Assembly (NCBI RefSeq): GCF_002954545.1
Contig: NZ_MSCH01000003.1
Location: 434,001-498,000, forward strand
Source: Psychrosphaera saromensis
GTDB lineage: Bacteria; Pseudomonadota; Gammaproteobacteria; Enterobacterales; Alteromonadaceae
DNA: 64,000 nt
Direction: 5' to 3'
The notes below the pieces were generated by a model. That model was not told the DNA's origin. It did no database searches and was given only the letters and a program-made list of their open reading frames with translations. The translations under genes were made by a program, and so were the position numbers. The stretch's first letter is position 1, and each line of letters starts with the position of its first letter. Below, in pieces: positions 1-9,328 of this stretch.

Positions 1-405
1 TGGCTGAACGTTAAAGCCTGCAATACTTTCTAACTTATCAGACGTACCACCAGTGTGGCCTAAACCACGGCCAGAGATCATAGGAACATAACCACCACAC
101 GCGCCAACAATAGCAGCCAGCATAAAGCTAACTTTGTCACCAACACCACCCGTTGAATGTTTATCAACGATAGGGCGGTCATAACCTTCCCAGCTTAAAA
201 CGTCGCCTGAGTGCATCATGGATGTGGTTAATGTTACTTTTTCTTCGGTGTTTAAGCTGTTTTGGAAAATAGCCATTGCCATCGCGCCCACTTGAGCATC
301 TGAAAACGAACCGTCGACTAAGCCATCAACAAAGCGCTGAATTTCTTGTTGCTTTAATACACCACCATCACGTTTTATTCTTATAATTTCTTGAGGTAAT
401 AACAT
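1..405 (-). CDS. deoA: thymidine phosphorylase, N-terminal part (cut by window edge)
   Basis: The first 135 residues of thymidine phosphorylase are present; the rest lies beyond the window start. The enzyme splits thymidine with phosphate into thymine and deoxyribose 1-phosphate in pyrimidine nucleoside catabolism. The N-terminus starts MLLPQEIIRIK and carries the family signature with PIVDKHSTGGVGDK and a GRGLGHTGGT loop, which bind phosphate and substrate. The start is well set: AAGGAC lies six bases before the ATG. The cdd stop codon is only 10 bases upstream, so both genes form one minus-strand operon. That operon would fall under the RutR-type operator in front of cdd. Confidence 0.95.
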   Translation of the reverse strand, partial: MLLPQEIIRIKRDGGVLKQQEIQRFVDGLVDGSFSDAQVGAMAMAIFQNSLNTEEKVTLTTSMMHSGDVLSWEGYDRPIVDKHSTGGVGDKVSFMLAAIVGACGGYVPMISGRGLGHTGGTSDKLESIAGFNVQP

Positions 406-415
406 GTACTTGTCC

Positions 416-835
416 TTAAACGTTAGATAATTGTTTTGGTGTAAAGGCATCCGGTAAAAGACCAGATACTGTCCATATTTTTTGTACATTTTTATGATTT
501 ACCGCAACCACAGGTGCATCGTTGGCAAAGAACTCAGAGATCACTTGTCTGCAAGCGCCACAAGGTGGTGTTAACTCATCTTGTTCTGTGTAAATCACGA
601 TAAGCTGAAATTCCTGCTCACCATTAATAACGGCATTACTAATACAGTTACGCTCAGCACAAACCGTTAAACCGTAAGACGCATTTTCAACGTTACAGCC
701 TTTAACAATATTACCGTTAGCAGTTAATGCCGCAGCACCAACATGGAAGTTGCTATAAGGTGCATAAGCCTTGTTGTATGCGTCTTTGGCAGCATCTACA
801 AGTTCTTGAGTAAGTAGCTCTTTTAAGTCAGTCAT
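416..835 (-). CDS. cdd: cytidine deaminase, short homotetrameric type
   Basis: Deaminates cytidine and deoxycytidine to uridine and deoxyuridine, the first step that feeds pyrimidine nucleosides into deoA. At about 139 residues it is the short single-domain form. Visible motifs are NVENAS for ribose binding, the zinc and proton-shuttle motif CAERN, and PCGACRQ, which gives the other two zinc cysteines. An upstream ATG at 865 would add 10 residues, rich in Asn and Asp. The start at 835 is preferred because the predicted promoter (-10 at 866-871) would begin transcription near 859, inside or after the longer start. Neither start has a good ribosome binding site, so this choice is tentative. First gene of the cdd-deoA operon. 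Confidence 0.93.
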   Translation of the reverse strand: MTDLKELLTQELVDAAKDAYNKAYAPYSNFHVGAAALTANGNIVKGCNVENASYGLTVCAERNCISNAVINGEQEFQLIVIYTEQDELTPPCGACRQVISEFFANDAPVVAVNHKNVQKIWTVSGLLPDAFTPKQLSNV

Positions 836-865
836 AATAGTTTCATTGTTATTATCGTCATTCAT

Positions 866-893
866 ACAATAGCATTGTTGACCATTTGGTCAA
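866..893 (-). promoter_or_regulatory. predicted cdd promoter overlapped by a RutR operator
   Basis: Positions 878-893 read TTGACCATTTGGTCAA, a perfect inverted repeat with 7-base arms and a 2-base centre. It matches 14 of 14 fixed positions of the RutR consensus TTGACCAnnTGGTCAA as known from E. coli. On the minus strand the same bases supply a -35 box (TTGACC, 888-893). A -10-like TATTGT follows 16 bases later (866-871). A repressor bound here would block RNA polymerase. The likely binder is the RutR-like protein encoded at 4821-5450. Confidence 0.8.
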
Positions 894-932
894 GTAATAA
901 CTATTGTGTGTTAATCACTTTATTTTGCTCAT

Positions 933-962
933 AAAAAAACCGCACTAAATAGTGCGGTTTTT
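933..962 (-). terminator. rho-independent terminator of the TonB receptor gene
   Basis: An 8-bp stem, ACCGCACT pairing with AGTGCGGT around a short AAAT loop, is flanked by A and T runs. It lies 25 bases after the receptor stop codon and has a T-tract on the minus strand. It separates receptor transcription from the cdd promoter downstream. Confidence 0.8.
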
Positions 963-986
963 AATTTAAGGCTTAATCAAATTCGA

Positions 987-3900
987 TTAGAATTTATATT
1001 TAATACCAATTTTAGCGCTCCAAGTAGACTCTCTGTCTTGGAACTCAACTGGTGAATCACCAGCTTCTACGCCATTACTTTCATAAACGTATTGGCCAGC
1101 ATCATTGATTGAGTAACCAAATATTGCGTCACTTGTTGAACCAAATGGGTTTTGATAAACACGCGCTGATTTAGCATCAATTAATGCTAATGCATTGTTG
1201 ATATCTATATAGAATATACCTTTATGACCATCTAAGAAGCCAGGTAACTCTTGTTCAAAGCGTAAATCCATTGTAGTTGTCCATGGACCACGGAATGAAT
1301 TTTTATCTAAATAACCACCGCTTGTTGAAGCACCAATAGTATTTAAATCAGCAATGATTTCTTCATAGCTTAAGCCATTAACAAAATCGACAGCTGGATC
1401 ATCAGCACCTGTTGGGATATAAGCTAACGCACTAGTTGTTAAATCTAGGTTACCAGATAACCCATCTTCATCATTAGTTCCAAGTAACCAGCTGTATGGT
1501 TTAGCTGATTTACGTTCCCAGAACATTGAGAAGTTAGAGTTATAACCAGAAACTAGTTCAGTATTATAAGAAAGACTAAATGTTAGTCGATGCTTAGTCT
1601 CAAATGCTGACGTTCCAATCTCAGGACTTTCAGGGTCAATTACAGGGTTATATTCATAAGCTGTATTTGTTGAAGTACCTGTAGCTGAAATACGATCTTG
1701 TACATCAGAGTGAGTGTATGAGAAGTTAGCATTAAAGCCACTTTCAAAACGTTTAGCAATTGAAAGTGATTCAATCAGTGTATGTCCACCTGAACTATTG
1801 CTCAGTAGAGTATCACGATTGCTTCTATTTTCATCCGTTCTAGTATAGATAGGACGACCTTCAACTGTGTATCCGTCGATACCTTTAGAAGTATCTAGGG
1901 TACGTGATAAATCAGACCAGATAAGATCAGTTTCAATATCCTTATACAACACCTCAGCACTAACATACCAGTCTTCACCTAGACCGATGCTAGATAAATC
2001 GGCTGTATAATCAGCAGCAATGCTGTACTGCCAAGTTGTAGGTATATCAAATCCAGGAGCAATAGCATCTATATTAGTATTAGAACCACCAAGTTCACTC
2101 GCCGCAACTGCATCTTGTGCAATTTGAGGAATAGAGCTTGGATCTGCACTATCTAAGATTGCTGAATCAGAATATGTGTCATATGAAGCTATACGAGAAC
2201 CATCGTTGGTAAATGCATTTGAAATAAATACATTAGGGCGTCCACCACTAAAGCGACCAGCACCACCACGAACCACTAGGTCGTCAGCAACATCCCAAGT
2301 GAAACCTACACGAGGCAAGAATAATGAAGCACCATCTAGATTTTCGGTATTATCAAATCCGTAACGGTCAACAAAACCAGAATTTAAATTTGGAGTATCG
2401 TCGTTAAATGTACGCTCGTAACGAATACCGTATGTCAGATTAAACTCATCTGTCATATCCCAGCTATCTTCAACATACAATGTGTTTGTACCAAGTGAGA
2501 ATTCAGCTGCTGCATCATCACGATTTAAAGTTGGATTGTTTTGATATTCAAAGCCATAAGCTTCACCAGCTTCAAATTCATCAATACTACCGAAATACCA
2601 TGAACCTAAGTAGTGTTGCATAAAGATGTTAAATACATCTACTTTCTCATATTCCCAACCAAATGAAATCGCATGATCATCCAATAAGTATTCACCGCCT
2701 AGGCGCATTTGGAATGTTTCATTAGTAAGCTCATTGGCATGACGGCTATCATCAGAACCAAGCATAACTTTTGCTGGGTATTTGTCATCGGTTAAGCTAA
2801 TTTTTACTTCACCAAAATCATAACCACCTAATGATACTTGTCCGTTAACACTTTCTTTGTATGAAATTTTAGCTTCTGTTGAGAAGTTATCAGACCAAAA
2901 TGAGTACAACTGAGCTACATAAGTGTCATATTCGTTTGAACGGTTATACCAGTGAGAAGACAGGTATAATTCGTTTGAATAACCAGCGCCCATATTACCA
3001 GCACTATTACTAAAGCCGTGTGAGTAAGCAAATGAAGCACGGTGATCGTCGTTTATATTCCAATCAAGTTTTAATGAATATTTTTCATCTTCAAGAGGAA
3101 TTGAATCATCCCAGCTACCAGCATCATAGCCATACTTATCTTTAGCTATGCTTATAATTCTATCTACTTGAGCTTGACTAATGTCATTAGCACCAACAGC
3201 GGCATTTGAATCTTCAGGGCCTTTTGTTGGTGAACTAGGAGATTCGAATGTTTCGTAAGCCGCAAAGAAAAACAACTTATCTTTAATAATTGGACCGCCA
3301 AGCGTTGCACCCCAAGTTTTTTCATCGAAACTTAAATCAATATCTTCGCCTGTTTCTGGATTTTCTGGAGTACCAGCCCATGAGTCTTGAGCTTGTTCAG
3401 CAAAGATACTACCGTGAAATTCATTAGTACCAGATTTAGTTACTACGCTTACTTTACCACCAGAAAAACCACCTTCTTTGGCAGTAAATGGAGCAATAGC
3501 TACACTAATTTGGTCAATTGAATCAAAAGAAATAGGAGAACGTTCTGTAGGGTAGCCGTTAGTTGCTAAACCAAAATCATCGTTAAGGTTTACACCATCA
3601 ACAGCTAAGCTATTATATCTAGGGTTACTACCTGCTAATGATAGAGACTGTCCGTCATTACTTACTACAGCCATAGGGTTTTGTTTTACAATATCTTTTA
3701 AGTCACGGTTAAATGCTGCAGATTTTGTAAGAGCGTCGCCACTAAATGTACTTGATGAACCTTTTGACGGGTCAAAGAAAACAGAAGAACCGTTTACCGC
3801 TATTCTTTCCATATCTATATTATCTAATGTTTCAGTAAGACGGAAAGTGTCACCTAAAGTAATATAAATCCCTTCAAGTTTTTTATCTGAATATGCATCT

Positions 3901-4160
3901 GAGTCAATAGTAACCGTATATGGTCCACCAACACGAAGACCATTAGCGATGAACGCACCCGATTCATTTACTTTTAACGTTTTACTCGTTCCTGATGGTT
4001 CATGAACAATAGTAATAGTTGCATCTGTTACAACATTTCCACTTACAGATAAAACACTTCCGCGAATAGAAGATGATGTATCTGCAGCCATAGCAGCTGT
4101 TGATAAACCTAGAGCTAAAACAACTGCTCCGGCGATGTGTGAAAGACGATGAGTTTTCAT
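987..4160 (-). CDS. Oar-like TonB-dependent outer membrane receptor
   Basis: A 1057-residue outer membrane receptor. It has a cleavable signal peptide (about 1-25, ending AAMA), then a carboxypeptidase-regulatory-like beta domain (about 30-115). A plug domain follows (about 140-245, with LAVDGVNLNDDFG and GGFSGGKVSVVTKSG), then a long beta barrel ending in KYKF with a terminal Phe. This layout is that of the Oar family. Substrate cannot be read from sequence. The gene is divergent from a RutR-like regulator that is followed by a secreted nuclease/phosphatase-type protein and an alkaline phosphatase, and RutR-like sites lie in the shared region. I therefore infer uptake of nucleosides, nucleotides or oligonucleotides; phosphate-rich organics are the alternative. 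Confidence 0.9.
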   Translation of the reverse strand: MKTHRLSHIAGAVVLALGLSTAAMAADTSSSIRGSVLSVSGNVVTDATITIVHEPSGTSKTLKVNESGAFIANGLRVGGPYTVTIDSDAYSDKKLEGIYITLGDTFRLTETLDNIDMERIAVNGSSVFFDPSKGSSSTFSGDALTKSAAFNRDLKDIVKQNPMAVVSNDGQSLSLAGSNPRYNSLAVDGVNLNDDFGLATNGYPTERSPISFDSIDQISVAIAPFTAKEGGFSGGKVSVVTKSGTNEFHGSIFAEQAQDSWAGTPENPETGEDIDLSFDEKTWGATLGGPIIKDKLFFFAAYETFESPSSPTKGPEDSNAAVGANDISQAQVDRIISIAKDKYGYDAGSWDDSIPLEDEKYSLKLDWNINDDHRASFAYSHGFSNSAGNMGAGYSNELYLSSHWYNRSNEYDTYVAQLYSFWSDNFSTEAKISYKESVNGQVSLGGYDFGEVKISLTDDKYPAKVMLGSDDSRHANELTNETFQMRLGGEYLLDDHAISFGWEYEKVDVFNIFMQHYLGSWYFGSIDEFEAGEAYGFEYQNNPTLNRDDAAAEFSLGTNTLYVEDSWDMTDEFNLTYGIRYERTFNDDTPNLNSGFVDRYGFDNTENLDGASLFLPRVGFTWDVADDLVVRGGAGRFSGGRPNVFISNAFTNDGSRIASYDTYSDSAILDSADPSSIPQIAQDAVAASELGGSNTNIDAIAPGFDIPTTWQYSIAADYTADLSSIGLGEDWYVSAEVLYKDIETDLIWSDLSRTLDTSKGIDGYTVEGRPIYTRTDENRSNRDTLLSNSSGGHTLIESLSIAKRFESGFNANFSYTHSDVQDRISATGTSTNTAYEYNPVIDPESPEIGTSAFETKHRLTFSLSYNTELVSGYNSNFSMFWERKSAKPYSWLLGTNDEDGLSGNLDLTTSALAYIPTGADDPAVDFVNGLSYEEIIADLNTIGASTSGGYLDKNSFRGPWTTTMDLRFEQELPGFLDGHKGIFYIDINNALALIDAKSARVYQNPFGSTSDAIFGYSINDAGQYVYESNGVEAGDSPVEFQDRESTWSAKIGIKYKF

Positions 4161-4511
4161 CTGATTTCCTTGGTTTAAGTTATTAATTCGGTAATGATTT
4201 ATTATTATTTAAAGCAAAGGATTAAAAACTTAACCATTTGCTCTGTTTTTCATTTCGAACGAAATTAGACCAGATTTTTATGTAAGTTTCATTACAATTA
4301 ATGAGTCTTTTTAGAAAAGATCAACATTTTAACTACAAAAATGGACAAATAAAGACAAGTTAAATAAATTTAACCTTTAAATTCAATAATTTAAAAAAGT
4401 TCAATAAATTTAAAAATATAGATGAATTATTTTTTCCCTTAGCAATTTTTTGTACAATTTACGGATGAAAAACAATCACCTCACAGGGGCGCGCAAACAC
4501 CAACTCAAAAC

Positions 4512-4527
4512 CTGACCATACAGTCAA
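4512..4527. promoter_or_regulatory. RutR-like operator, 11 of 14 consensus positions
   Basis: Reads CTGACCATACAGTCAA; the arms TGAC and GTCA are an exact inverted repeat. It departs from TTGACCAnnTGGTCAA at three positions. It lies immediately upstream of a TATAAT box on the plus strand and 352 bases from the TonB receptor start. Confidence 0.55.
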
Positions 4528-4726
4528 GTTTATAATATCCTATATAAACAACAAGTTACACTTTTGTTGAATTGGATAAATTTCAGCCATTGCTAATATT
4601 CAACAAAAAAAATGATTTGTTTTTCAGCTTTTCTTTAAAATGTAACTATTACCATTTATAGTAGCCGCCTAGTGCCAAAGTAAGTTTGTTTAGTTGTAAG
4701 GAACAACGGCAGCTAAATATAGAAAA

Positions 4727-4742
4727 CCAACTACTTGGTCAA
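4727..4742. promoter_or_regulatory. RutR-like half-operator upstream of rutR
   Basis: Reads CCAACTACTTGGTCAA. The right arm TGGTCAA is perfect (7/7) and the left arm is poor (3/7). It lies 79 bases before the rutR start, a sensible place for autoregulation. Weaker evidence than the other two sites. Confidence 0.4.
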
Positions 4743-4820
4743 TATTTATAAACATGGATTAAATTTCTTTCTATTAATGCATCATTTAATTAGAAGTCTT
4801 TAGCGTTTGGGTAATAACAC

Positions 4821-5450
4821 ATGACAACAAATCAGACTAAAAAAACCGGTAACATCCGTGTTCAAAGTCAACAGAAGATCCTTATTGCGGCAAGTACTGA
4901 ATTTGTTCTTCAAGGCTATAAAGGGGCGACAGTGCAATCTATTGCCGACAGAGCAGAATTACCTAAAGCTAACATCCTCTATTATTTCAAAAACAAAGAT
5001 AACATCTACCAAGCTGTACTTGAGCACACATTGGAAATGTGGGATCAAGGTATTGGCGATATTGACCCAGTAGATGGTCCTAAGGTAGCAATAGAAAAGT
5101 TTATTGATGCCAAAGTACGCTTGTCTTTCAATTACCCTGAATCTTCAAAAATATATGCAATGGAGATCATCCAAGGCGCACAACATCTAAAAGAATTCGC
5201 TCGCACCTATTTAAGACAGTGGGTACGTGAAAAGGCTAAGTTATTTCAACAGTGGATTGATAATGGCGAAATGTTGGATGTTGACCCGGTTCACTTAATC
5301 TTTCTTATTTGGTCTTCAACGCAGCATTACGCTGACTTTGAAACGCAAATATTAACCATAATGAATCGAGCTGATTACGAAGATGATGACGTAGAAACCG
5401 TTATCAAATTTTTAACCGACATGATTTTACGAGGCTGCGGGTTAAAATAA
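4821..5450 (+). CDS. rutR: RutR-like TetR-family regulator of pyrimidine use
   Basis: A 209-residue TetR-family repressor. The N-terminal helix-turn-helix spans about residues 18-64 (IADRAELPKANILYYF). The C-terminal ligand domain contains DPVHLIFLIWSSTQHYADF, nearly the same as the corresponding stretch of E. coli RutR as I remember it (DPQHLIFMIWASTQHYADF). E. coli RutR binds uracil and thymine, which release it from DNA. No rut (uracil degradation) operon is visible here; instead the gene heads a cluster of a secreted nuclease/phosphatase-like protein and an alkaline phosphatase. RutR-type sites lie upstream of it and of cdd-deoA. The next gene follows after 6 bases, so it is probably co-transcribed. 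Confidence 0.85.
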   Translation: MTTNQTKKTGNIRVQSQQKILIAASTEFVLQGYKGATVQSIADRAELPKANILYYFKNKDNIYQAVLEHTLEMWDQGIGDIDPVDGPKVAIEKFIDAKVRLSFNYPESSKIYAMEIIQGAQHLKEFARTYLRQWVREKAKLFQQWIDNGEMLDVDPVHLIFLIWSSTQHYADFETQILTIMNRADYEDDDVETVIKFLTDMILRGCGLK

Positions 5451-5456
5451 ACCATA

Positions 5457-6698
5457 ATGAAAAACTACCTATTAATAGCGATACTATTTATGCTGACCGC
5501 AACTGAATTAGATGCTAGTGAAATTAGAGTGGCGACATTTAATGTCAGTATGGAAGCGCTGAACTATGCAAAAAACTCTAAAGATAAAAAGTCCGACCTA
5601 TCAGGTCAAACTCTGGTTAATGCATTAGCCACAGGTCATCAACAAATTAAAAACATTGCTGAAATTATCCAACGGGTAAAACCAGACATCATTTTGTTGA
5701 ATGAATTCGACAATGGAACAAACAGCGATAACAGCATTAACAAAAGCAAAAACAAAGATCACGCCGCATTAGTAAGCTTTATCAAAGACTATTTAAACCA
5801 AGGTCAAAATGGCCAGGCTGGTATTGATTACAAATATTTCTACCAAGGGCCAGTAAACACCGGAGTTAATTCAAACTTAGACCTAGATAATAATGGTACT
5901 AAAGGCCAACTCCCTGCTGATGGTTATGGCTACGGTCATTTTTCTGGTCATTATGGCATGGCGTTATTATCTAAATACCCAATTGACCAAGCTAACATTC
6001 GTACTTTCCAGATGTTTAAATGGAAAGACATGCCTGGTGCACTTCGCCCTGTTACTCCAATAAATACCCCAACAGCAGACCCAAAAGCAGGTAAATCTTG
6101 GTACGACGACACTACATGGAATGAATTACGTTTATCCTCCAAGTCTCATTGGGATATTCCAGTTAACGTTAATGGTACCGAACTGCATATTTTGGCTAGC
6201 CACCCTACGCCACCAGTATTTGATGGTAAAGAAGATAGAAACGGCAAACGTAACCATGATGAAATTCGTTTATGGACGGATTATATAACGCCAGAAAAAT
6301 CTTCTTATATTTATGATGACCAAGGTAATAAAGGTGGACTTGCCAGCGATAAACCATTTGTATTATTGGGTGACTTAAATGCCTCTAATGTTGAAGGTAA
6401 TGCCATATATGCAGGCATAGGTGATTTATTAAATCATAAAAATGTACAAGATGTGATGCCACAAAGTAACGGCGCACAGAAACATAGCCCTAGTAATAAG
6501 TTTGGAAAAAATCACACGGCATTTTGGCGCATGAGAGCAGATTATGTTTTACCGTCAAAAAGCAGTATAAAAGTAAAAAGCAGTGGCGTATTTTGGCCCA
6601 CTAAACAAGAAGATACTTTCAGATTAATCAAAGATCGCAGTGCATCATCCGATCACAGATTAGTCTGGCTGGACTTACGTGTTGAGTCCGTGAACTAA
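5457..6698 (+). CDS. secreted endonuclease/exonuclease/phosphatase-family protein
   Basis: A 413-residue protein with a signal peptide (about 1-20) followed by an EEP fold, the DNase I / phosphodiesterase superfamily. Metal and catalytic motifs are in order: ATFNVS (about 26-31), LLNEFD with the metal-binding Glu (about 80-85), GHYGMALLSKYPI, LASHPTPP, GDLNAS (about 304) and SSDHRLVW with the catalytic Asp-His (about 397). It should hydrolyse phosphodiester or phosphomonoester bonds outside the cytoplasm; the exact substrate is not readable. It starts 6 bases after rutR and is followed 41 bases later by alkaline phosphatase, so extracellular nucleic acid or nucleotide breakdown is the natural inference. 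Confidence 0.85.
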   Translation: MKNYLLIAILFMLTATELDASEIRVATFNVSMEALNYAKNSKDKKSDLSGQTLVNALATGHQQIKNIAEIIQRVKPDIILLNEFDNGTNSDNSINKSKNKDHAALVSFIKDYLNQGQNGQAGIDYKYFYQGPVNTGVNSNLDLDNNGTKGQLPADGYGYGHFSGHYGMALLSKYPIDQANIRTFQMFKWKDMPGALRPVTPINTPTADPKAGKSWYDDTTWNELRLSSKSHWDIPVNVNGTELHILASHPTPPVFDGKEDRNGKRNHDEIRLWTDYITPEKSSYIYDDQGNKGGLASDKPFVLLGDLNASNVEGNAIYAGIGDLLNHKNVQDVMPQSNGAQKHSPSNKFGKNHTAFWRMRADYVLPSKSSIKVKSSGVFWPTKQEDTFRLIKDRSASSDHRLVWLDLRVESVN

Positions 6699-6739
6699 AT
6701 TAACCCTAATAATTCAGTGTATAAATATTGGAATATAAA

Positions 6740-8041
6740 ATGAAAAAAACAATTTTAATCGCATGTCTTGCTTTGCTTACAAACGCTTGCAGCAACGAAG
6801 GTACCAATGCTGCTCAAGCACCTAAAAATATAATTATGGTTGTAGCTGATGGAACAGGACCAGCTTATACCACGGCGTATCGTTATTATAATGATGACCC
6901 GACGACCCAAGCGATTGAAGAAACCGTATTCGACCGTCACTTAGTTGGTATGGCAAGTACTTACCCAGCTAGAGTGTCAGGTTATGTTACTGACTCTGCT
7001 GCAGCCGCTACTGCACTGTCGACTGGCGTTAAGTCATACAATGGCGCTATTGGTGTCGATGTTGATAAAAAGCCAGTTCAAACGGTTTTAGAATATGCAA
7101 AGCTATCAGGTAAAAAAACCGGCGTTGTTGTTACTTCACAAATTAACCACGCAACACCAGCTTCATACTTAGCCCATAACGAAAGTCGTAAAAACTACGA
7201 CGCAATTGCAAACAGCTATATAGATGAAGGGATTAAAGCTGACGTTTATCTTGGTGGTGGTTGGAGTTACTTTATCCGTGATGACCGTAACCTTGTCGAT
7301 GAATTTAAGACTGCAGGATTCCATTACGTTGATAGCTACGACCAATTAGCAAACGTACCTGATGATAAACCTCTTCTTGGTTTATTTGGCAACACAGGCT
7401 TACCTTGGTCTTTAGATGATACCAATCCACAGCGTTTATCTGTGATGACTAAAGCCGCTACTGATCAGTTAGAAAATAAAAAAGGTTTCTTCATGTTAGT
7501 TGAAGCGAGCCAAGTTGACTGGGCTGGGCATAGCAATGACATTGCAGCGGCTATGGGTGAAATGACAGACTTAGCGACTACAATGGAATACCTAGAGCAG
7601 TATGTAAAAGACCATCCTGATACACTAGTTGTAATGACGGCAGATCACAGCACAGGCGGTTTAACGGTTGCAGCAAATGGCAAATATGAATGGAACCCAG
7701 AGTACTTACGTACGATGACCCAATCACCTAGTGCTATTACTAAAACCTTACTAGATTCAGAAATTAACAAAAAGCTAGTTGAAGAGTTACTTCATTTTAC
7801 AATTACCGACGAAGAACTCGTATTTTTACAACAAGCTAAAGTTGAGAAATCATCTGACAAGCAAGTTTATAAAATAGTCAAAGCAATCATTGATCAACGC
7901 ACTAACACTGGCTGGACATCTGGCGGCCACACTGGAATTGATGTTCAAGTTTTTGCTATGGGTGCAGGTAGTGAAATGTTCAGAGGCAAAATCGACAACA
8001 CTGATATTGCCAAAAAAATCTTTAGTTTATTGGGTAAATAA
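6740..8041 (+). CDS. phoA: alkaline phosphatase lipoprotein
   Basis: A 433-residue alkaline phosphatase that removes phosphate from monoesters such as nucleotides. The N-terminus is a lipoprotein signal ending in the lipobox LTNAC, so it should be membrane-anchored, with the mature enzyme outside the cytoplasm. Seen motifs: VADGTGP (metal Asp), TDSAAAATA with the nucleophilic Ser near residue 85, DWAGHSND near 260, TADHSTGG near 300 and SGGHTG near 393. The ATG at 6740 is chosen over an in-frame TTG at 6728 because GGA lies just upstream and it begins a proper MKKT signal. Last gene of the rutR cluster; a terminator follows. The symbol is for the family, not strict orthology to E. coli PhoA. 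Confidence 0.88.
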   Translation: MKKTILIACLALLTNACSNEGTNAAQAPKNIIMVVADGTGPAYTTAYRYYNDDPTTQAIEETVFDRHLVGMASTYPARVSGYVTDSAAAATALSTGVKSYNGAIGVDVDKKPVQTVLEYAKLSGKKTGVVVTSQINHATPASYLAHNESRKNYDAIANSYIDEGIKADVYLGGGWSYFIRDDRNLVDEFKTAGFHYVDSYDQLANVPDDKPLLGLFGNTGLPWSLDDTNPQRLSVMTKAATDQLENKKGFFMLVEASQVDWAGHSNDIAAAMGEMTDLATTMEYLEQYVKDHPDTLVVMTADHSTGGLTVAANGKYEWNPEYLRTMTQSPSAITKTLLDSEINKKLVEELLHFTITDEELVFLQQAKVEKSSDKQVYKIVKAIIDQRTNTGWTSGGHTGIDVQVFAMGAGSEMFRGKIDNTDIAKKIFSLLGK

Positions 8042-8070
8042 ACGAGTAGTAAATATATTTTTTTACAATA

Positions 8071-8098
8071 AAAAGGGACGAATATTCGTCCCTTTTTT
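8071..8098. terminator. bidirectional terminator between phoA and the phytase-like gene
   Basis: Stem AAAAGGGACGAAT pairs with ATTCGTCCCTTTT, a near-perfect palindrome with A and T runs on both sides. It lies 30 bases after the phoA stop codon and could also serve the convergent gene that ends at 8174. Confidence 0.85.
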
Positions 8099-8173
8099 GT
8101 GCGTATTAATTATATGATCTGAATACAGTTAACCGCATCAATGAAATCTTGTTAATGAGCTTTTATAAAATTA

Positions 8174-9328
8174 TTAATTCAACCACTGCTTTGCTACCGG
8201 CATAGAAAATAACAAAGGTGACATAGCTTTAAACTTAGCTTCATTCGACGGGCAAATAACGTTTTTCATATAGTTACGTTTCCAAGGGTCGTTCACCATC
8301 CAAATGGTATCGCCGATAATACCTAGCCCTTCTAACGACGCATTGTCCATTTCATCCCAAACGTTACAAGACCCATCACTCACATTGGTTGGCGCTAAAA
8401 AGCCTAACTCGATTACTTTGGTCGGTTGTTGTTTGGCTAAGTCAATAATCCACAGCTTGCTGTCGTTTCTTGCCGCTGCGATTAGAAAGCCAGCTTTTCC
8501 ATTAACCGCAAGATAATCCATGCCATTTAACGGATGATTGCCAGAGTCAAATTTAGGCAATAATAATTCAGGATCAGCAACAGGCGCAAAGTCGTCTGTG
8601 CTCCAAAAGTCTTGTCCAATCTGAACCGAGAAAATACGAGCTTGTTTTTGTTGGTCTTTTTCTAACGCTAAATAAAGTTGATTGTTTTGGCCAAACGCTA
8701 ACCCTTCAATCCCGTCATTTGGAAAGTTACCTACGTTAAAATCAGCAGCAAATTGTAGCGGACGTACATTACTTATCTCTACCGTATTTTTATCTTTCAC
8801 CAGTAAACGCACTAATAAGCTTGGGTAGTTGGTGGAACCAGAATTAGTAAAACGTTGCATACACTCTTTTGATAAACCAATGCCGCGTGTTGCATCTTCC
8901 GTCACAATAATAATTTCACTATCGTTCGTTGGATTTACAGCAAGCGCTTCATAGTCAGGTTTGTCAGTTAAGTAATCAGCAAAACAGCCTTGCTGAACAG
9001 CGTCAGACATGGTTATTTGCATTATGGTAGGGTCTAAAACCGCTGAACTCGGGTCAATAACATGCAACTGTTTTTGCTGTGAACTATCAGCACTGGCATC
9101 AGAAATAGATAACAACTTGCCACGCCAATGTTTTAGCCCTGAGGTTTGTGGGTCTAACATCGCCTGACCATTTGTTTCTGTTATCCACTTACCTTGCAAC
9201 ATTATCTTACTATTAAGCGCTGCATTATCATCAGAGCTGCTAGTCTCATTAGTGCTTACCGTTATTATTAAAGCAGATATCGCCACAGCAATAATAAGTA
9301 GCCATGAGTTGCGTTGCATATATTTCAT
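8174..9328 (-). CDS. esterase-like activity of phytase family protein
   Basis: A 384-residue protein with an N-terminal hydrophobic signal or anchor (about 8-25) and a beta-propeller-like body. The segment DGIEGLAFGQNNQLYLALEKD and the late ASLEGLGI repeat match the phytase-like esterase family. Members are often found beside phosphatases and are thought to act on organic phosphate or ester compounds, but activity is poorly proven. It converges on the alkaline phosphatase gene and so plausibly belongs to the same scavenging function. I found no RutR-like site in front of it, so co-regulation is not supported. Confidence 0.75.
   Translation of the reverse strand: MKYMQRNSWLLIIAVAISALIITVSTNETSSSDDNAALNSKIMLQGKWITETNGQAMLDPQTSGLKHWRGKLLSISDASADSSQQKQLHVIDPSSAVLDPTIMQITMSDAVQQGCFADYLTDKPDYEALAVNPTNDSEIIIVTEDATRGIGLSKECMQRFTNSGSTNYPSLLVRLLVKDKNTVEISNVRPLQFAADFNVGNFPNDGIEGLAFGQNNQLYLALEKDQQKQARIFSVQIGQDFWSTDDFAPVADPELLLPKFDSGNHPLNGMDYLAVNGKAGFLIAAARNDSKLWIIDLAKQQPTKVIELGFLAPTNVSDGSCNVWDEMDNASLEGLGIIGDTIWMVNDPWKRNYMKNVICPSNEAKFKAMSPLLFSMPVAKQWLN

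Follow-up and report, generated by a model that had tools for sequence, protein, structure and literature searches.

A RutR-like regulator with conserved operators and an exchangeable TonB-dependent receptor at a likely nucleic-acid scavenging locus of Psychrosphaera saromensis

Marine bacteria can draw carbon, nitrogen and phosphorus from dissolved DNA and nucleotides; to our knowledge, the passage of nucleic-acid pieces across the outer membrane is little described in bacteria that lack the Tsx channel. In E. coli, the deo and cdd genes are under the control of the DeoR and CytR repressors; this regulon is not known to include a TonB receptor or a secreted nuclease. Type switching, with divergent receptor types at one locus, is known for the Pseudomonas pyoverdine receptors. 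In this study, we analysed a 64-kb stretch of a Psychrosphaera saromensis contig (the window; genome size 3.6 Mb). At its left end a RutR-like regulator of the TetR_C_3 family, which we named RutL, is grouped with cdd-deoA, a divergent Oar-like TonB-dependent receptor, an exported protein of the EEP family and an alkaline phosphatase (Table 1); gene calls and domain matches agree with a first-pass annotation on this grouping.

RutL shares with E. coli RutR the TetR_C_3 fold family, the operator consensus TTGACCAnnTGGTCAA (which we take to be that of RutR and which the first-pass annotation also gave) and four of the five uracil-contacting residues; it differs by its targets, which would be nucleoside catabolism and the receptor region, by a Phe at the Y97 position and by the lack of a RutA match in its genome. 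DeoR and CytR repress the same catabolic genes as RutL would, although the regulator families are unrelated. In Alteromonadales, HypR is a catabolic regulator whose regulon extends to secreted collagenases and a TonB-dependent transporter (PMC5343134). The regulon of RutL would show the same extension to secreted depolymerases and a TonB transporter, but HypR is a different regulator, dedicated to proline/hydroxyproline and collagen (PMC5343134). The likely scavenging regulon is a variant of such broadened catabolic regulons, for which related bacteria already offer examples. In aquatic bacteria, replacement flexible genomic islands encode similar functions, among them surface structures, at the same place with very different sequences, and homologous recombination at conserved borders has been proposed for them (PMC4033161). 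Neither this regulon nor the receptor exchange reported below was found in the literature searched, which did not extend to RegPrecise's RutR collection.

The first-pass annotation had proposed that a RutR-like regulator likely controls a regulon for scavenging extracellular nucleotides. The link of a RutR-type regulator with cdd-deoA and with the receptor/regulator region held, as the operator follows RutL among relatives (see below). RutL scores under the curated RutR cut-offs (TIGR03613, 162.7 versus 368 bits; NF011584, 140.4 versus 230 bits), no match to RutA of the rut operon was obtained in its genome at E 0.001, and one pocket residue is usually changed; for these reasons RutL is, judged from its sequence, a relative of RutR rather than RutR proper. 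Its TetR_C_3 (YcdC-like) C-terminal domain is clear (155.1 bits, cut-off 25). In E. coli RutR, uracil is held by W77, W167, Q171 and Q179' and, via a water molecule, by Y97 (PMC10891134). RutL of the window keeps W74, W164, Q168 and Q176 and has F94 at the Y97 position; both lysines of the helix-turn-helix are kept. Uracil or thymine is a plausible effector, and the pocket change likely alters effector affinity.

To each site we gave a score, its number of matches out of 14 to TTGACCAnnTGGTCAA, and the reversed pattern served as control. The three sites of the first-pass annotation, before cdd, between receptor and regulator, and before the regulator, were recovered at the same positions with the same scores (Table 1). 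With up to three mismatches, four sites are present in the window versus 3.3 expected, and 254 in the genome, fewer than for the reversed pattern (339). As there is no enrichment at this threshold, the two weak window sites mean nothing alone and gain weight solely from their conservation in relatives. With at most one mismatch, the genome has four sites and the control one. Three of the four are at nucleoside genes of a single 9-kb stretch: the exceptional 14/14 site precedes cdd-deoA in the window, and the two others are just outside it, upstream of deoD (426082) and between deoB and udk (428681); the chance of finding three of four sites in one 9-kb stretch is about 2e-5, all such stretches being allowed for. 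Both the cdd and the deoD sites overlap a -35-like TTGACC (read by eye), a position suited to a repressor. The fourth site (genome position 2561824, L171:5824; 13/14) is intragenic and located about 180 bp upstream of pyrF; the 16 bases are identical in genome G002 and none is listed in G001 (G denotes genomes, G000 being that of the window, and L denotes loci or stretches, L009, L164 and L171 being in that genome). This site could connect RutL to pyrimidine synthesis, or be due to chance, and we treat it as unproven.

Conservation in relatives was examined by a scan of named genomes, which yielded 80 loci; 65 were kept (L044-L108, at least 43% identity) and the 15 others, more distant or matching the DNA-binding part alone, were left out. 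cdd, receptor and regulator are found together in 48 of the 65 loci, and the EEP and phosphatase genes follow the regulator in most loci reaching far enough (exceptions include L062, L063, L100, L101, L105 and L108). The conservation of the sites that the first-pass annotation called for was observed: the top-scoring site close to the cdd start reaches at least 12/14 in 44 of the 48 loci (14/14 in 6, 13/14 in 29, 12/14 in 9), the remainder having 11/14 (two loci), 9 and 7 (once each). We also scored 57 receptor/regulator intergenic regions, including that of the window. A best site of at least 11/14 is present in 47 of them (1.5 expected) and one of at least 12/14 in 18 (0.08 expected), with 13/14 in loci such as L055, L068 and L072, while five permuted patterns reach 11/14 in at most 3 of these regions and 12/14 in none; as the loci are related to one another, such counts are not independent. 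Ten relatives with RutL were then compared to 25 genomes of the same bacterial family without it. All ten RutL genomes possess deoA, versus 7 of the 25 others (Fisher p 1e-4), and a site of at least 12/14 is present near deoA in 8/10 RutL genomes versus 0/7 deoA-containing genomes devoid of RutL (Fisher p 0.002).

Operators are also found at genes for secreted nucleases. Eleven RutL genomes, that of the window included, were surveyed for Endonuclease_1 genes, and 12 were obtained, spread over five genomes. Four of them have a site of at least 12/14 within about 215 bp upstream, in G014 (-107; 14/14), G015 (-75), G002 (-101) and G020 (-215), the G014 product (1348 residues) combining Endonuclease_1, lamin-tail and EEP domains; one gene (L187) was not judged because its start is outside the stretch. 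A secreted EEP gene is preceded by a 14/14 site in G001 and G002, in G001 directly ahead of deoD. At the corresponding place in the P. saromensis genome, from the deoD site to deoD (L009:10082-10582), there is only one short frame, which we take to resemble an XapX-type membrane protein. L062 (9995-19125) and L063 hold a second RutL locus composed of receptor, transketolase, Endonuclease_1 and deoD genes, with 12/14 sites between receptor and transketolase and before the Endonuclease_1 gene. Since sites precede true secreted nucleases in some relatives, nucleic-acid scavenging is better founded than from the window alone; in those relatives there is good ground for a regulon that begins with the polymer, and for P. 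saromensis we infer this stage. In seawater, the addition of DNA or deoxynucleoside triphosphates raised the transcription of genes that included those of TonB transport systems and NupC (PMC7546218). The P. saromensis genome and its seven genus mates gave no match to Tsx. An anti-correlation between Tsx and RutL was considered and discarded, as many RutL-free relatives are devoid of Tsx too and the RutL genomes G019, G020, G028 and G034 have a match.

The three best sites at nucleoside genes, the conserved cdd and intergenic sites, the way in which site and deoA accompany the regulator, the nuclease sites of relatives, and the pocket residues and helix-turn-helix lysines that are kept lead us to consider it probable that RutL, a RutR-like repressor, controls a regulon for nucleic-acid scavenging. 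Effector-free RutL would occupy the TTGACCAnnTGGTCAA sites of the cdd-deoA, deoD and deoB/udk-nupC-deoC-tdk-upp promoters, as well as the weaker ones located between rutL-EEP-phosphatase and the receptor gene. The build-up of pyrimidine bases, or of close breakdown products, would release RutL from DNA, and the cell would then produce the port of the outer membrane together with exported phosphoesterases and the enzymes of nucleoside catabolism, along with secreted nucleases of the same regulon in some relatives. In this model, the port gene can be replaced by distant homologs with the control undisturbed. The first-pass annotation also placed the EEP and phosphatase genes under the regulator. 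The gaps before these two genes hold no site of their own, but they are only 6 bp (regulator-EEP) and 41 bp (EEP-phosphatase) long, so that the three genes probably form a single transcript through which such control would be exerted.

Several observations weigh against this model, and they bear on two other explanations. Near the receptor, the window has weak sites (10-11/14), and the reversed pattern attains at least 11/14 in 13 of the 57 intergenic regions and 12/14 in two. RutL might govern nucleoside catabolism and itself, the receptor, EEP and phosphatase genes being a neighbouring phosphorus-acquisition set mainly under other control; the weak receptor sites and the absence of sites in the gaps before EEP and phosphatase would fit this arrangement, and the enzymes would equally serve phosphate supply. 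We regard it as unlikely, because many relatives share the order cdd-receptor-RutL-EEP-phosphatase, because the intergenic sites are conserved, in some loci at the 13/14 level, and because Pho-boxes are not clearly enriched in the window (8 found, 5.1 expected), a result on which PhoB control of the cluster was rejected. Other points against the model are that two of the ten RutL genomes lack a 12/14 site near deoA, that 7 of the 12 Endonuclease_1 genes have no upstream site in the stretch seen, that the P. saromensis genome has no Endonuclease_1 gene, and that the Y97 position, Tyr in all ten other aligned family members, is Phe in 60, Ile in 4 and Tyr in only 2 of the 66 ortholog rows with a letter.

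A last point concerns the family of the regulator. TetR_C_3 regulators divergent from xanthine dehydrogenase genes in G016 and G031 carry the same motif (14/14 at L165:8808 and 13/14 at L166:8593), which means that the motif is family-wide and not RutL's alone. The P. saromensis genome encodes a paralogous TetR_C_3 regulator 33 kb away, near the nucleoside genes, in a purine-degradation cluster (G000:C6:396001-416000, L164) with an adjacent xanthine dehydrogenase gene and urease, malate synthase G, urate and allantoin genes (read from translations). It is very improbable that this paralog, of the same family as RutL, is the main binder of the sites: it has an Arg at the base-contacting K52 position, where RutL has a Lys, and its own cluster has no site above 11/14. 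Furthermore, G010, with an Arg-type paralog and no RutL, has cdd-deoA without a 12/14 site, whereas G001, with RutL and no such paralog, has a 14/14 site there. Intergenic stretches were searched for a palindrome of the paralog, and no perfect one with 7 or 8 bases per arm was found. This paralog, the deoD and deoB/udk sites and the receptor exchange were out of reach of the first-pass annotation.

The receptor has CarboxypepD_reg (PF13620), PF07715 (24.3 versus 23.9 bits), PF00593 and PF25183 domains, and this set, with its plug and barrel, identifies it as an Oar-like TonB-dependent receptor. A predicted model (mean predicted local distance difference test score 82.7; built from 46 of 56 receptors) has 22 barrel strands by our count, and its best solved folds are TonB receptors in general, so that the fold does not tell the ligand; a sequence search gave no solved relative. 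The regulon and the neighbouring genes suggest that nucleosides or nucleotides would be taken up. The promoter-like block of the receptor gene is almost invariant in nine aligned relatives despite differing receptor coding sequences behind it. It was found, with 5 mismatches in 19 allowed, before receptor types T1 to T8, in 30 of the 47 loci tested out of 55. Its 24-base pattern is single-copy in the P. saromensis genome (up to three mismatches); of 148 genomes taken as a sample of the order, 10 have its 17-base core (at most one mismatch).

The most surprising part of our findings, and the least expected, is that the receptor type is exchanged at this locus. The 56 receptors of 55 loci fall into ten groups at 55% identity (23, 13, 6, 5, 2, 2, 2, 1, 1 and 1 members). 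In the tree, the nearest relatives of the window are two Psychrosphaera records, L044 and L045; the window receptor belongs to the group of 13, whereas that of L044, the closest, belongs to the group of 23. Of 22 regulator pairs at least 95% identical (L068, with two receptors, left out), 11 have receptors less than 50% identical, whereas cdd, deoA, EEP, phosphatase, tdk and nupC never fall below 77% in this class. Regulator versus receptor identity is 99% versus 38% for L054/L056, 99% versus 46% for L069/L098, 97% versus 40% for L087/L094 (strains, not metagenome bins) and 95% versus 39% for the window and L044. Recent exchange would leave near-identical receptors in strains that otherwise differ, and of this we saw moderate cases only, such as L069/L102 (receptor 82%, regulator 63%) and L076/L088 (receptor 86%, regulator 74%). 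On a tree of flanking proteins from 48 loci, at least 21 receptor type changes are needed, compared to a mean of 24.7 for shuffled labels (1 of 200 shuffles as low as 21), which shows that slight clustering by descent remains.

The limits of the exchanged segment are visible at the DNA level. Between L054 and L056, identity is 85-100% in and after cdd, mostly 35-65% across the 3.1-kb receptor gene and 90-95% at the receptor start and promoter; it drops to 43-83% in the middle of the intergenic region and again exceeds 85% in the regulator. For L069/L098, intergenic identity holds at 73-100%. Signal peptides are 67% identical between types and 71% within types, versus 34-51% and 60-74% for the other receptor parts. 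Variation limited to the extracellular loops, a pattern that pure phage escape might produce, was rejected: between types, identity is lowest in the loops (34%), yet the strands (40%) and the plug (50%) diverge too. The simplest reading is that receptors are exchanged by recombination at the conserved ends. The types could instead be ancient tandem duplicates with differential loss and no exchange between lineages. Two types do occur in tandem in the slot of L068 (2379-9242), and duplication with later loss may contribute; as a full explanation we find it doubtful, given the type changes needed on the flanking-protein tree, the drop and recovery of identity at the ends of the coding sequence, and the single other match to the receptor in the P. 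saromensis genome, which is partial and 31% identical.

Among the precedents found, replacement genomic islands come nearest to the receptor exchange (PMC4033161); with them the slot shares very divergent sequences of similar function at the same locus in close relatives. Those islands are gene clusters, for instance for flagellum glycosylation or polysaccharide (PMC4033161), whereas here one receptor coding sequence is replaced behind a kept signal peptide. Compared to the pyoverdine receptors, with which it shares divergent types at one locus, the slot belongs to a putative nutrient regulon, and its conserved block showed no genes for making a siderophore.

Table 1. Features of the P. saromensis locus (positions in the window; sites scored as matches out of 14)
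Feature	Position	Strand	Score	Remarks
deoA, thymidine phosphorylase, first part	1..408	-		start codon near 408; continues left beyond the window; full translation L009:17101-18489; name read from translation
cdd, cytidine deaminase	416..865	-		above NCBIfam cut-offs of PRK05578 and TIGR01354; true start perhaps ATG near 835
Candidate operator before cdd-deoA	878..893		14/14	overlaps -35-like TTGACC; genome position 434878
Oar-like TonB-dependent receptor	987..4160	-		divergent from regulator; exchangeable cassette from about signal-peptide end to stop codon
Site in receptor leader	4230..4245		10/14	similar position in a subset of relatives
Promoter-like block of receptor (TGTAATGAAA...TCTGGTCTAAT)	4253..4305	-		conserved
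Candidate operator between receptor and regulator	4512..4527		11/14	
Candidate operator before regulator	4727..4742		10/14	
RutL, RutR-like TetR_C_3 regulator	4821..5450	+		
Exported EEP-family (Exo_endo_phos) protein	5457..6698	+		signal-peptide-like start; putative nuclease or phosphodiesterase
Alkaline phosphatase	6740..8041	+		lipoprotein-like start (read by eye); best solved relative 3a52
Phytase-like protein	8174..9328	-		Pfam match slightly under curated cut-off (25.7 vs 27.6 bits)

Immediately to the left of the window are deoD, deoB, udk-nupC-deoC-tdk-upp and deoA (names read from translations), which were used as synteny queries, and deoA orthologs adjoin cdd in relatives. The best solved relative of the phosphatase is a cold-active alkaline phosphatase (E 1.3e-130), and a sequence search of solved structures gave no relative for the EEP protein.

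We are evenly divided on a broader proposal, in which the port is a one-gene cassette swapped among at least ten old types. Recombination would take place at the 3' end and at the conserved promoter/signal-peptide end, with RutL control kept constant, so that binding at the surface (phages, bacteriocins or another nucleic-acid ligand) would change without rewiring of the pathway; RutL, its pocket retuned, would form a RutR subfamily of its own. Surface selection is our hypothesis for the cause of the exchange. The locus supplies a candidate port together with a regulator, its operators and partner enzymes, all of which may be tested in cultured Colwellia and Psychrosphaera, and the receptor exchange raises, at the scale of one gene, the question of whether surface selection can replace a nutrient port while regulation and pathway are unchanged.

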